Source: Anaerolineae bacterium
Lineage (GTDB): Bacteria; Chloroflexota; Anaerolineae; Anaerolineales; Anaerolineaceae
DNA: 64,000 nt
Assembly: GCA_013178095.1 (NCBI GenBank)
Contig: JABLXK010000007.1
Span: 1 to 64,000, forward strand
Reading direction: 5' to 3'
In this document: positions 48,094 to 58,342 of the stretch, in pieces
How positions within the stretch are numbered: position 1 is the stretch's first letter
Layout of the letters: every line of letters begins with the position of its first letter
Made by a program: the position numbers and the translations under genes
Notes under the pieces: generated by a model
Told to the model about the DNA's origin: nothing
The model's database searches: none
The model's input: only the letters and a program-made list of their open reading frames with translations

Positions 48094-49152
48094 ATGAGCA
48101 CAGTTCAGGAAAAACTGGATTCCCTGACCAAAGCCGGATCCCTGTACAGCACAGAGTCCGGCGGCGCTGTGCGCTGCCAGGCTTGCGCGCATCGCTGCCG
48201 CATCCAACCCGGCAAGCGCGGCGTTTGCCTGATGCGCTTCAACCGCGATGGTCAGCTCTACGTGCCTTGGGGTTACGTGGCAGCCGCCAACGTGGACCCT
48301 ATCGAGAAAAAACCGTTCGCCCACTTCCTGCCGGGCAGCGACGTATTGACCTTCGGCATGTTAGGATGCAACTTCCACTGCGATTTCTGCCAAAACTGGG
48401 TCAGCTCGCAAACCTTGCGCGATCCGGCGTGCGACAACAGCCTGGCTTACATCCAGCAGGTGAGCGCGCGCGACCTGGCCGCCTATGCTGTGCGCAGCGG
48501 CGCGAAGGCTGTGGCATCTTCCTATAACGAACCGCTCATCACCAGCGAGTGGGCAATCGAGATCTTCAAAGCCGCCAAAAAAGAAGGGCTGCGCTGCGCG
48601 TACGTCTCCAACGGTTTCGCCACGCCGGAAGCGCTGCATGCCTTGCAGCCATATCTGGACGGGTACAAGATCGACTTGAAGTGCATGACCGATGCGGCTT
48701 ACCGCGAACTGGGCGGTTCGCTGCAAATCGTTCTGGATACCATCCGCCTGGCGCGCGAACTGGGTATGTGGGTGGAAGTGGTCACGCTGGTCATTCCGGG
48801 TTTCAACGACAGCAACGAAGACCTGTGGGAAATGGCGCGCTATCTCGCTTCTGTATCAAACGACATTCCCTGGCACGTGACCGCATTTCATCCGATGTAC
48901 AAGCGTCTGGAGGCGACCGCCACCGACAGTGAAACGCTGCAGCGCGCCGCCGAGATCGGACAGGAAGCCGGGCTGCATTACGTGTATGCCGGCAACCTGC
49001 CGGGCCGGGTCGGCTCGCTGGAAGATACACATTGCCCCAAATGCCATGCTGTGTTGATCCGGCGCACGGGTTACCTGGTGCGCAGCAACCGGGTCACCCC
49101 GCAAGGCACCTGCCCGGATTGCGGGCAGCCCATCGCCGGCATTTGGTCTTAA
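48094..49152 (+). CDS. amrS: AmmeMemoRadiSam system radical SAM enzyme
   Basis: CQACAHRCRIQPGKRGVCLMRFNRDGQL, LGCNFHCDFCQNW (CxxxCxxC), C-terminal CPxC motifs. Confidence 0.9.
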   Translation: MSTVQEKLDSLTKAGSLYSTESGGAVRCQACAHRCRIQPGKRGVCLMRFNRDGQLYVPWGYVAAANVDPIEKKPFAHFLPGSDVLTFGMLGCNFHCDFCQNWVSSQTLRDPACDNSLAYIQQVSARDLAAYAVRSGAKAVASSYNEPLITSEWAIEIFKAAKKEGLRCAYVSNGFATPEALHALQPYLDGYKIDLKCMTDAAYRELGGSLQIVLDTIRLARELGMWVEVVTLVIPGFNDSNEDLWEMARYLASVSNDIPWHVTAFHPMYKRLEATATDSETLQRAAEIGQEAGLHYVYAGNLPGRVGSLEDTHCPKCHAVLIRRTGYLVRSNRVTPQGTCPDCGQPIAGIWS

Positions 49153-49226
49153 AGAATTCCACAAAAACTTCACAAAACCGGAAACTTTTTTCGTATTTTT
49201 GCGTTAAGTAGATACAGGTACGATTA

Positions 49227-49254
49227 TTGCACCTTAATTTACAGGTCTTATTAT
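49227..49254 (+). promoter_or_regulatory. Putative sigma70 promoter of small-ORF/structured RNA unit
   Basis: TTGCAC (49227-49232) - 16 nt - TATTAT (49249-49254). Confidence 0.5.
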
Positions 49255-49330
49255 TGAAATGCCGCAGACAGGCTGCCGCGCCGCATTGGAAAACCAATGG
49301 GAAGCCTGTCAAGGCAGGAAGAGGAGAGCC

Positions 49331-49423
49331 ATGGCTATTTTTACAAATCTCGTAATTGGATTTCTCGGATTTATCTTTCTGGCCATGAGCCTGTTAGGTT
49401 TACAGCCACCATCCAAGCAATGA
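49331..49423 (+). CDS. Unannotated 30-aa predicted membrane peptide
   Basis: Manual translation MAIFTNLVIGFLGFIFLAMSLLGLQPPSKQ*; RBS AGGAG four nt upstream of ATG; absent from ORF track (below length cutoff). Confidence 0.55.
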   Translation: MAIFTNLVIGFLGFIFLAMSLLGLQPPSKQ

Positions 49424-49537
49424 GGATGCGATCTCAACACCCAACGGGAAGGAGCGGTTAGCGCGGCAGCCGCGGCTGACCGTTGGACAAGGGATCTGGC
49501 AAGCCTGTTGCAGGCAGCCGGAACCATTTCCGACCCG

Positions 49538-49566
49538 CCGGGAGCATTCAAGCTCCCGGTTTAGGT
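49538..49566 (+). terminator. Intrinsic terminator-like hairpin
   Basis: CCGGGAGC-ATTCAA-GCTCCCGG followed by TTTAGGTTT. Confidence 0.55.
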
Positions 49567-49609
49567 TTAACAATTCAGAGTTTTTTGGATTTTGCTTAAA
49601 TAAGAGCGG

Positions 49610-50191
49610 TTATTCTTGCCGATCCGAAAAGAGAATCTCGCCATTCTCCATCGATTTTATGGAAGCCAGCGCATGCACGGGAACATTCAAATATGCCAGG
49701 GCTTCCCGTCCGCCCTCGAATTCTTTCTCGATCAAGGCACCCACTCCCACCAGGGGCGCGCCGGCGGCCTGGATGAGGCGCACCAATCCCATGATGGTCG
49801 CACCGCTGGCTAAAAAGTCATCGATGATCAAGACTGGTTCTTCGCGGGGCAAAAAATCGGGAGAGACAATCAACTCGGTCATTACGCCTTTGGTATGCGA
49901 AGGTGCTACGGTCAGATAAACCGTATCCGACATGGTGACTGGTTTCTTTTTACGAGCATAGACTACCGGTAAATTCAAATATCGCGCGGTCATCAATGCG
50001 GGAGCAATACCCGAGATCTCGGCTGTGAGGATGCGCCTGGCGCCCACGCCGGCAAACAGCCGCGCGAATTCCTTCCCGCAAGCTTCCATTAACTCAGGAT
50101 CAACCTGATGATTGATAAATCCATCGACCTTGAGAATTCCATCCCCCAGGTTTCGAGCTTCTTTCGCAATGCGATCCTCTAATAATTGCAT
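49610..50191 (-). CDS. xpt: Xanthine phosphoribosyltransferase
   Basis: MQLLEDRIAKEARNLGDGILKVDGFINHQVDPELM; PRPP-binding VLIIDDFLASGATIMGLVRL; start probably 50191. Confidence 0.88.
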   Translation of the reverse strand: MQLLEDRIAKEARNLGDGILKVDGFINHQVDPELMEACGKEFARLFAGVGARRILTAEISGIAPALMTARYLNLPVVYARKKKPVTMSDTVYLTVAPSHTKGVMTELIVSPDFLPREEPVLIIDDFLASGATIMGLVRLIQAAGAPLVGVGALIEKEFEGGREALAYLNVPVHALASIKSMENGEILFSDRQE

Positions 50192-50256
50192 AGACAACTC
50201 CTGCGGCATATTTCAGGCAATTAAACCACAATCCTAACCCTTGCATAGGGGAATCC

Positions 50257-51012
50257 CTAAACGCTGATCGCGCCGCGAATTTGTTTTGCCATGGCCTGAA
50301 ATTCAGCGGAATAGCGGGCCTCCTCGCCGCGCGGGCGCGGCAGCCTGACCGGCAAATCCAGCAGCACGCGCGCCGGCCGCTGGCTGAGCACCAGTACACG
50401 ATCAGCCAGCAGCAGAGCCTCGGAGATTGAGTGCGTGACCATAACCACCGTTTTGCGGCGCGCCTGCCAAATGCGCAGCAACTCCGCCCCCATCTTTTCG
50501 CGGGTCAGAGCGTCCAGCGATCCGAAGGGCTCATCCAGCAGCAGCAAGTCAGGGTCCTGGATGAGAGCGCGTGCGATCGCCACGCGCTGGGCCATCCCAC
50601 CCGACAGGGATTCCGGCCAGACGTTGGTGAACTCCTGCAGGCCGACCAATTCGATCAAGTCCTGCGCTTTTTGCAGCGCCGCATCCTGCGGCACCCCGCG
50701 CAACTCCAAAGGCAGCAGGATGTTATCCAGCACGGTGCGCCAGGGCATCAGGTTGCTTTGCTGGAAGACCAGCCCTACGCTTAACTGCTGATTGTCCGCT
50801 TTGAGCAGTTGGCCGCCGGTTGGCGCCAACAACCCCGCCAGCATCCGCAGCAAGGTGGACTTTCCGCAGCCGGAAGGACCCAGCACGCATAAAAACTCCT
50901 GCGGACGGATTTCCACCTGAATATCCCGCAGCACTTCCAACTCTCCATTCTGATCGTGGAAAGTCATCTGAATGTGCTGGAGGGAAATCACGCTGGCAGT
51001 TGAAGCGGTCAT
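50257..51012 (-). CDS. ABC transporter ATP-binding protein (candidate flavin transporter ATPase)
   Basis: LGPSGCGKSTLLRMLAGLL, LSGGMAQRVAIARALIQDPDLLLLDEPFGSLD; third gene downstream of FMN riboswitch. Confidence 0.9.
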   Translation of the reverse strand: MTASTASVISLQHIQMTFHDQNGELEVLRDIQVEIRPQEFLCVLGPSGCGKSTLLRMLAGLLAPTGGQLLKADNQQLSVGLVFQQSNLMPWRTVLDNILLPLELRGVPQDAALQKAQDLIELVGLQEFTNVWPESLSGGMAQRVAIARALIQDPDLLLLDEPFGSLDALTREKMGAELLRIWQARRKTVVMVTHSISEALLLADRVLVLSQRPARVLLDLPVRLPRPRGEEARYSAEFQAMAKQIRGAISV

Positions 51013-51016
51013 TGTC

Positions 51017-51991
51017 TCATTCAGGCAAAAAAGTGTTGCTGTAAGCGGCACTCAAATCCAGCGGGCTGGAAAGCAGCTCCATGCGCAGCAGTAAATCTTG
51101 CATATTCTGCCAGGCTTGCGGGTCGCTATAACCCGGCCGTTCGACCTGCCAGATTTTGATGGAAGCTTCCAACACCTGGCGCTGTACTTCCTGTTCTTCA
51201 GGCGTAAGGGAAGCCAGGTTATCCACATATTTTTTGCAGATTTGGAAAGCTTCATCCGCGTGTTCAGCCGTGTAGGTGACCCCGCGCGTGAGTGCGCGCA
51301 CCATCCCGCGCACCAGGTCAGGATCCTCCTCCATCGTTTTTTCATTGGTGATCAGCCCATTGGCTACCAGCGACAGGTAATCCGAAACCGGCAGGACATC
51401 GACCTCATAACCCCTGGCTTGCAGCTGGATCGGTTCGTTGCTGGTGTAGATGTCTACCACATCCACCACCCGGTTAGCCAGGGATTCGACCTGGGTATAA
51501 CCGATCGATTGCAGGGTAACGTCGGCATCGCTTAACCCGCCGGCATGCAGCAGGGCTTCCAGGCCGATATAACTGGCGCCGTACAAGCCGGGTAAACCGA
51601 TGGTCTTGCCTTTTAAGTCGTGTGGAGAACGCAGGTTTTGCTCCTTCAGGGCGGCGATACCCACCGGGTAATCCTCATACCAGGCGGCCACGTACACCAC
51701 CGGCAATTGCTGGGCGCGCCCCAGCAGCACCTGCTCGCCGGACACGATGGCAAATTGCAGTTCGTCCGAACCCACCAGCGCCACCGAATCCGTTTCCATG
51801 TTGTAATCCAGCTCCACCTGGATGCCTTCTTCGGAAAAATACCCTTTTTCAATTGCTACATAAAGGGGTGCGAATTGCACGTTGGGGATGTATCCAAGCG
51901 GCAGGCGCACCGCGCTCACTTTTTGGGATGAACAAGCAGATGCCAGCAGCATGATGATCCCACACAGGATAAAATTCAATGTCTTTTTCAT
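51017..51991 (-). CDS. ribY: NMT1-family substrate-binding lipoprotein, candidate riboflavin/flavin-binding RibY
   Basis: LASACSSQ lipobox; LPLGYIPNVQFAPLYVAIEKGYFSEEGIQVEL; downstream of FMN riboswitch. Confidence 0.75.
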   Translation of the reverse strand: MKKTLNFILCGIIMLLASACSSQKVSAVRLPLGYIPNVQFAPLYVAIEKGYFSEEGIQVELDYNMETDSVALVGSDELQFAIVSGEQVLLGRAQQLPVVYVAAWYEDYPVGIAALKEQNLRSPHDLKGKTIGLPGLYGASYIGLEALLHAGGLSDADVTLQSIGYTQVESLANRVVDVVDIYTSNEPIQLQARGYEVDVLPVSDYLSLVANGLITNEKTMEEDPDLVRGMVRALTRGVTYTAEHADEAFQICKKYVDNLASLTPEEQEVQRQVLEASIKIWQVERPGYSDPQAWQNMQDLLLRMELLSSPLDLSAAYSNTFLPE

Positions 51992-52006: not shown

Positions 52007-52825
52007 TTAATCCAGTTTCCAACGCAACAATCTCTTTTCCAGCCAAACAACCAGGGAATACAGCAGCACTGCCAGGCAGACCAACGTCAGCACACCCACG
52101 AAAACCAGAGCGGTATCATACTGGCCGCGCCCGACATTGATCAAAAAACCCAAACCGCGGTCTGAACCCACCAATTCCCCCACCACCGCGCCGATCACCG
52201 AAAGCGTGGCGCCGATACGCAAGCCGCCCAGCAGAATTGGCAAGGCAGCCGGGAGTTCCAACTGGCTGAATGTCTGCCAGGGCGTGGCGCGCATGGACCG
52301 CATCAGATCGCGCAGATTTTCCGGCACGGCGCGCAAGCCCACCACCGTGTTCACCAGCACCGGGAAGAATACGGTCAGCGCGCAAATCAGCACCTTGGAA
52401 AAAATTCCCGACCCAAACCAGATCACCAACAGGGGCGCAATGGCTATCGTAGGCACCGCCTGGCTGGCTACCAGGAAAGGCTGCAGCACGTTTTCCAGGA
52501 ATCTGGACTTGGCCAGGAGATACCCCAGCAGGCTGGCAAATAAAACCCCGCAGGAAAGGCCGCTAACCACTTCCAACAGGGTTGCGGCGCCATGTTCCAA
52601 CAGCGATCCGTCGCTCAACGCGCGCACAAAGCGCTCAGCCACCTGGATGGGTGCCGGCAGGATAAAAGCCGGCAATTGCAGCAACAGCACCAGCAACTCC
52701 CACAGCAACAGGAATAGAGCTATGGTGATCACCACGCTCAACCTCCTGATGCTTCGATTTTTTACTTCAGCGGTTTCCATTTTGTATATAAAAAGACCTC
52801 GAAAACGAACTACGTTTCGAGGCAA
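52007..52825 (-). CDS. ribX: ABC transporter permease, candidate RibX
   Basis: BPD permease pattern AVPTIAIAPLLVIWFGSGIFSKVLICALTVFFPVLVNTVVGLR; first gene downstream of FMN riboswitch. Confidence 0.75.
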   Translation of the reverse strand: MPRNVVRFRGLFIYKMETAEVKNRSIRRLSVVITIALFLLLWELLVLLLQLPAFILPAPIQVAERFVRALSDGSLLEHGAATLLEVVSGLSCGVLFASLLGYLLAKSRFLENVLQPFLVASQAVPTIAIAPLLVIWFGSGIFSKVLICALTVFFPVLVNTVVGLRAVPENLRDLMRSMRATPWQTFSQLELPAALPILLGGLRIGATLSVIGAVVGELVGSDRGLGFLINVGRGQYDTALVFVGVLTLVCLAVLLYSLVVWLEKRLLRWKLD

Positions 52826-52840
52826 TTCATAAAAGAAAAC

Positions 52841-52968
52841 CTTCTTTAATATCCGGACTATACCGTCGACCCCGGAATTACACCGGATCTGCGCATTTCA
52901 GCGCTCGTGGGTTATTACCACCGATCGGGAATCGGGAAACCAGTTCCCTCACCCTGCCCCGAAGGAAG
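52841..52968 (-). promoter_or_regulatory. FMN riboswitch (RFN element)
   Basis: Minus strand CTTCGGGGCAGGGTGAGGGAACTGG...GATCGGTGGTAATAACCCACGAGCGCTGAAATGCGCAGATCCGGTGTAATTCCGGGGTCGACGGTATAGTCCGGAT matches the RFN consensus. Confidence 0.95.
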
Positions 52969-53043
52969 TTCGCCATCATTGTATAAGCATTTTTAACACG
53001 CGTCAAGTCAAATCTGTGAATATCCATTTATAATGTTGAAATC

Positions 53044-58125: not shown

Positions 58126-58255
58126 ATCTCATCCAGTGCAGGGATGATTAATATACCAAAACTATACTAACATAAATAAAATTATTGCGTGGAATTATTT
58201 TCAGGGGGGGGGTTCTTGGGGTGATCAAATAAAAGAGTTCAAGATAAAAAACAGC

Positions 58256-58342
58256 GGAGAGGGTGGGATTCGAACCCACGGTAACCAAACTGGCTACAAC
58301 GGTTTTCGAGACCGCCCCGATCGGCCGCTCCGGCACCTCTCC
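58256..58342 (-). tRNA. tRNA-Ser (anticodon CGA)
   Basis: GGAGAGGTGCCGGAGCGGCCGATCGGGGCGGTCTCGAAAACCGTTGTAGCCAGTTTGGTTACCGTGGGTTCGAATCCCACCCTCTCC; GTTCGAATC T-arm, long variable arm, anticodon loop CTCGAAA. Confidence 0.95.

Follow-up and report, generated by a model that had tools for sequence, protein, structure and literature searches.

Predicted transcription unit between the amrS-type and xpt-like genes

The window is a 64,000-nt stretch of an Anaerolineaceae genome (contig JABLXK010000007.1). A preliminary description, made from its letters alone, had proposed an uncalled transcription unit between 49152 and 49610, encoding a 30-aa membrane peptide. We assigned the following features to this gap and its flanks.

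48094-49152, + strand: upstream neighbour, AmrS-type radical SAM protein of 352 aa (Pfam Radical_SAM), outside the unit
49180-49206, + strand: predicted ECF-sigma-type promoter GGAAACTTTTTTCGTATTTTTGCGTTA, that is GGAAACTTTT-N11-GCGTTA (recurrence of the motif in relatives, rarity in its own genome, published hallmarks)
49267-49310, + strand: 5′ leader hairpin, GACAGGCT (49267-49274) with AGCCTGTC (49303-49310), enclosing CATTGG-AAAA-CCAATG (from the sequence)
49284-49289 and 49294-49299, + strand: inner leader stem, CATTGG with CCAATG (from the sequence)
49322-49326, + strand: Shine-Dalgarno sequence AGGAG (SD-like sequences also precede the ATG in relatives)
49331-49423, + strand: microprotein gene of 30 codons, product MAIFTNLVIGFLGFIFLAMSLLGLQPPSKQ (30 aa) with one predicted transmembrane helix (family homologues, purifying selection, AlphaFold)
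49441-49486, + strand: 3′ UTR stem, CCAACGG (49441-49447) with CCGTTGG (49480-49486) (compensatory changes within the genus)
near 49504-49516: GCCTG/CAGGC hairpin (from the sequence)
49537-49560, + strand: intrinsic terminator GCCGGGAGC-ATTCAA-GCTCCCGGT followed by a T-rich tail (terminator scan)
49610-50209, - strand: convergent downstream neighbour, phosphoribosyltransferase (xpt-like; Pfam Pribosyltran), outside the unit

The peptide, a terminator of its own and a conserved promoter all support the proposed unit. The stems, the AGGAG, the ORF and the GCCTG/CAGGC and terminator hairpins are present as first described, and the scan found the terminator in the same place. The boundaries changed: instead of 49227-49570, the unit spans about 49213, the predicted start, to 49563.

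A terminator was found within 220 nt past the stop codon in 52 of the 61 loci read (the window's own included). As controls, random windows drawn from these loci gave 6-11 of 61, the reverse strand gave 23 and the upstream side 18. Because 52 of 61 loci have their own terminator, the gene appears to be mostly monocistronic.

The promoter originally suggested, TTGCAC (49227-49232), N16 and TATTAT (49249-49254) on the + strand, is probably not one. TTGCAC matches the -35 consensus TTGACA at only three of six positions, a consensus sigma-70 scan finds no site, and neither the hexamers nor their spacing are conserved in relatives. The conserved ECF-type site lies just outside the coordinates first given, at 49180-49206.

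The microprotein family and its predicted helix

A DNA search of 147 Anaerolineaceae genomes matched genus mates only, plus the ORF stretch alone in genus g36, and a narrow alignment used as query recovered three Pelolinea loci. The 30-aa query followed by profiles widened the family to 68 genomes and later to 78 of 147, in 29 of 40 genera. The gene occurs once per genome, the sole exception being a weak partial second match in genome G106. It is present in Pelolinea submarina (NZ_AP018437.1), the nearest named relative, and in two Pelolinea MAGs, which points to a Pelolinea-like member of Anaerolineaceae as the source of the window. Beyond Anaerolineaceae, an order-wide search gave one weak partial match, and a class-wide profile search gave weak partial matches only, mostly within long frames. 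The family is essentially confined to Anaerolineaceae. The peptide had no significant match in Pfam, NCBIfam, PHROGs or PDB sequences, in agreement with the preliminary description, which had recognised no small-protein family. Literature searches for small proteins from Anaerolineaceae or Chloroflexota yielded nothing relevant.

All 61 inspected peptides start with ATG, are 26-34 aa long and share the consensus MAxxVYxVVGxxGxxFxAxSLxGL. Values of pN/pS were 0.11-0.32 in five genera, indicating purifying selection. Within Pelolinea, second codon positions are nearly invariant, with 6 differences vs 79 at third positions. With its conserved frame and synonymous-biased substitutions, the 30-aa ORF at 49331-49423 is, on comparative evidence, a genuine protein-coding gene.

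AlphaFold predicted one helix at residues 2-23 (mean pLDDT 85.9), consistent with the membrane peptide first described. Conservation along the helix peaks at 100 degrees, the alpha-helical period, with a modest permutation p-value of 0.018. The conserved face of the family consensus is Y6/V9/G13/F16/S20/G23, with 3-4-3-4 spacing; the window's copy has N instead of Y at residue 6. The peptide termini carry little consistent charge. A single conserved helical face is expected for helix-helix packing, and this pattern suggests specific packing, with itself or with a partner, rather than general membrane disruption.

Synteny is conserved inside genera. amrS lies directly upstream, about 141-231 nt away, in 20 of the 61 loci, and different genes take its place in the other 41. 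The flanking genes vary among loci and so point to no partner gene; we rejected a functional link to amrS since synteny is broken in two thirds of genomes. A DinB-like/MDMPI-type gene adjoins the microprotein gene in about 30 loci (L103-L113, L135-L153), often on its downstream side; it runs in the same direction in genus g5, whereas the two genes converge in g39/g40. We rejected a link to this gene as well, because both orientations occur and many loci are without it.

ECF-type promoter and putative regulon

ECF promoters have AAC at -35 and CGT at -10 as hallmarks, and the -35 of RpoE is GGAACTT (PMC8103513). The site at 49180-49206, with -35 GGAAAC and -10 CGTTA, has the sequence features of this class (AAC/GGAAC at -35, CGT at -10, fixed spacing), and transcription from it would start at about 49213. 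The strict form GGAACTTTT-N9..13-CGT[ACT] was found in 29 of 61 upstream regions and in none on the reverse strand or in shuffles (background ~0.002 per 260 nt). A relaxed ECF-type motif was present upstream in 41 loci vs 2 of 61 on the reverse strand; about a third of the loci have no recognisable GGAAC/CGT motif. The motifs were first spotted on visual inspection of the very regions counted here, and the relaxed patterns were drawn up later, so the counts are descriptive; the regulon provides the independent test.

Several genera have a variant, GCTTTTT-N10-GGGTTAT. It was found in 15 of the 61 loci (background 0.002 per 260 nt), either by itself or in addition to the first motif. It lies upstream of the microprotein gene at L097, L100-L102, L120-L122, L128-L132 and L152, and occurs together with GGAACTT-CGT at some of these loci. 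Another ECF sigma factor may recognise it.

The window's own genome has exactly four copies of the pattern GGAA(N)CTTT-N10..14-CGTTA, and one of a reversed control pattern. The four sites lie 55-151 nt upstream of the genes for the microprotein and for three lipoproteins: SIMPL, chagasin-type I42 inhibitor and Ig-like. Across 14 genomes few strict sites were found, 0-4 in each except G038, which has 10. Apart from those at the microprotein gene, several of these sites precede genes for SIMPL (DUF541), DUF4349, DUF4282 and Ig-like proteins, most of which bear lipoprotein or secretion signals; DUF4349 lipoproteins carry the promoter in other genera. Some of the remaining sites are within coding sequence. 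The reverse test, starting from SIMPL genes in 20 genomes, revealed the motif upstream in 14 of 25 loci, including all four in Pelolinea; four of the misses are second copies of a tandem pair. Since the motif was found both from the microprotein side and from the SIMPL side, shared control is supported both ways. From the class of promoter and the nature of the products, we infer that this putative regulon may respond to envelope stress. The literature searched contained no description, for Chloroflexota or Anaerolineaceae, of a regulon that combines the microprotein with SIMPL, DUF4349, chagasin-type and Ig-like lipoproteins.

G038 (genus g10) has far more strict sites than the other genomes, yet the microprotein was not detected in it. 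The window's own genome has 11 sigma-70 region-2 matches, about 8 of them ECF-sized, and no obvious autoregulated copy of the motif upstream of any of its sigma genes. In several genera (L159, L165, L167, L181, L194, L191), the final codons of an ECF sigma gene contain GGAACTT...CGTCT, about 45 nt ahead of the likely anti-sigma gene. This may be an internal anti-sigma promoter, or may only reflect conservation of the sigma factor's C-terminal peptide.

Proposed function of the peptide and of the mRNA structure

The region folds at -130.8 kcal/mol (z = -5.2 vs dinucleotide shuffles), and in the MFE fold the leader is able to pair with the 3′ region. All three other Pelolinea are predicted to form a leader hairpin at this position, though its sequence diverges and the G105 fold is weak. 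By and large, leaders from other genera show no more structure than shuffles. In the 3′ stem, compensatory changes were found in two of the three genus mates (an alignment of four sequences): A-T is replaced by G-C in G106 and by T-A in G105, and C-G by T-A in G105. P. submarina and G105 have one mismatch each. Outside the genus the structure is not kept. With four sequences, the comparison suggests that the leader hairpin and the 3′ stem are genuine Pelolinea features that covary in part; neither extends across the family.

The preliminary description had also noted a repeat, AAGCCTGT...GGCAGG in the leader with the near copy AAGCCTGTTGCAGGCAG in the 3′ region, which could allow alternative pairing. 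The window has the repeat, P. submarina and both Pelolinea MAGs lack it, and with the hairpins confined to Pelolinea a conserved alternative-pairing switch is not upheld. No Rfam family matched the region above gathering score, in line with the preliminary description, and the best match at relaxed threshold is at chance level (E = 8.8). Judged from the sequence comparisons, what is kept family-wide is the peptide, the ECF-type promoter and the terminator, whereas the stems are conserved only within Pelolinea; most likely they protect or tune the mRNA there and are not the conserved function.

We consider it probable that the locus encodes an ECF-controlled single-pass membrane microprotein of an Anaerolineaceae-specific family, produced from a monocistronic gene in an envelope-stress regulon and packing via its conserved face. 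At the sequence level, the conserved ORF, the Shine-Dalgarno sequence, the terminator, the ECF-type promoter and the sharing of this promoter with a few envelope lipoproteins have all been demonstrated. Under envelope stress, an anti-sigma factor would release the ECF sigma factor, and the freed sigma factor would transcribe the microprotein gene together with the lipoprotein genes. The peptide would insert into the cytoplasmic membrane as one helix, and the face Y6, V9, G13, F16, S20 and G23 would pack against itself or a membrane-protein partner, helping to stabilise or tune the membrane. More specifically, the microprotein could be the membrane arm of an undescribed Chloroflexota ECF envelope-stress response, its helix face regulating the anti-sigma factor, a membrane protease or the lipoprotein machinery of the same regulon; this extension is speculative and rather doubtful.

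Proteins of this kind are already known; the family and the regulon are new here. YohP is a stress-related single-helix membrane microprotein that may dimerise and protects stressed cells (PMC7549839, PMC12719787). YohP (E. coli, 27 aa, Pfam PF25659) is of the same size and topology as the present peptide but belongs to another phylum, and the present peptide has an Anaerolineaceae-specific motif and an ECF-type promoter common to lipoproteins. PF25659 gave no significant match (1 of 21 members at E = 0.22). The promoter resembles those of RpoE/SigW-type ECF regulons in its architecture (-35 GGAAC, -10 CGT) and in driving envelope genes (PMC8103513); the difference is the set of lipoproteins plus a microprotein, of which the literature searched gave no Chloroflexota example. 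Annotation routinely overlooks microproteins of <35 aa. In this case a gap noted by hand led to a conserved single-copy family without a Pfam or NCBIfam entry and to a small ECF-type regulon. The system can be tested directly, as it has a single promoter motif, a single 30-aa product and a named relative, P. submarina MO-CFX1, whose genome is complete.

Other explanations were weighed against this one. KdpF and CydX are ~30-aa single-pass membrane proteins, and a small subunit of their type, serving a respiratory or transport complex, would share the size, the topology class and a conserved packing face with our peptide. Such a role is unlikely: the microprotein gene is free-standing and monocistronic, neither family is among its Pfam or NCBIfam matches at a threshold of E = 10, and its promoter is common to envelope lipoproteins, not to complex subunits. 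Among the neighbours annotated, no consistent complex genes were found: in the window the gene is flanked by amrS and xpt, and those recurrent clusters that were examined are of other kinds. A type I toxin in the style of TisB or DinQ, that is a small hydrophobic peptide from a structured mRNA under antisense RNA control, is very unlikely, although the size, the single helix (predicted at residues 2-23), the structured leader, its possible pairing with the 3′ region and a stress promoter all recall DinQ/TisB (PMC3567139). Against it stand the single-copy distribution across the family with synteny conserved inside genera, the strong purifying selection and the conservation on a specific helix face. 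Moreover, the structured leader is absent from most genera, the leader-3′ repeat is not conserved, and no sigma-70-like antisense promoter was found in the region.

If the RNA itself were the functional product, as an sRNA or a cis-regulatory RNA with the ORF incidental or a leader peptide, the low fold energy and the compensatory pairs in the 3′ stem would be accounted for. This explanation is highly improbable in view of the codon-position bias in Pelolinea, the retention of the peptide but not of the RNA structure outside the genus, and the lack of an Rfam match; because the gene that follows varies or is oppositely oriented, there is nothing consistent to regulate in cis. Last, the position directly downstream of amrS in a third of the loci would fit a small accessory subunit of the AmrS system. 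AmrS is a soluble radical SAM enzyme, amrS lies elsewhere in the other 41 loci, where the neighbours differ, and the microprotein's own predicted promoter sits between the two genes, all of which make this explanation extremely improbable.

Elsewhere in the window, a minus-strand ABC transporter set lies downstream of an FMN riboswitch.

50257-51051, - strand: ABC transporter ATPase
51017-51991, - strand: NMT1/THI5-like binding protein of the same set
52007-52825, - strand: ABC permease of the same set
52835-52970, - strand: FMN riboswitch (Rfam RF00050, 83.7 bits)
58254-58342, - strand: tRNA-Ser (CGA) gene

The FMN riboswitch ahead of the set suggests that this transporter takes up riboflavin, not thiamine or nitrate.
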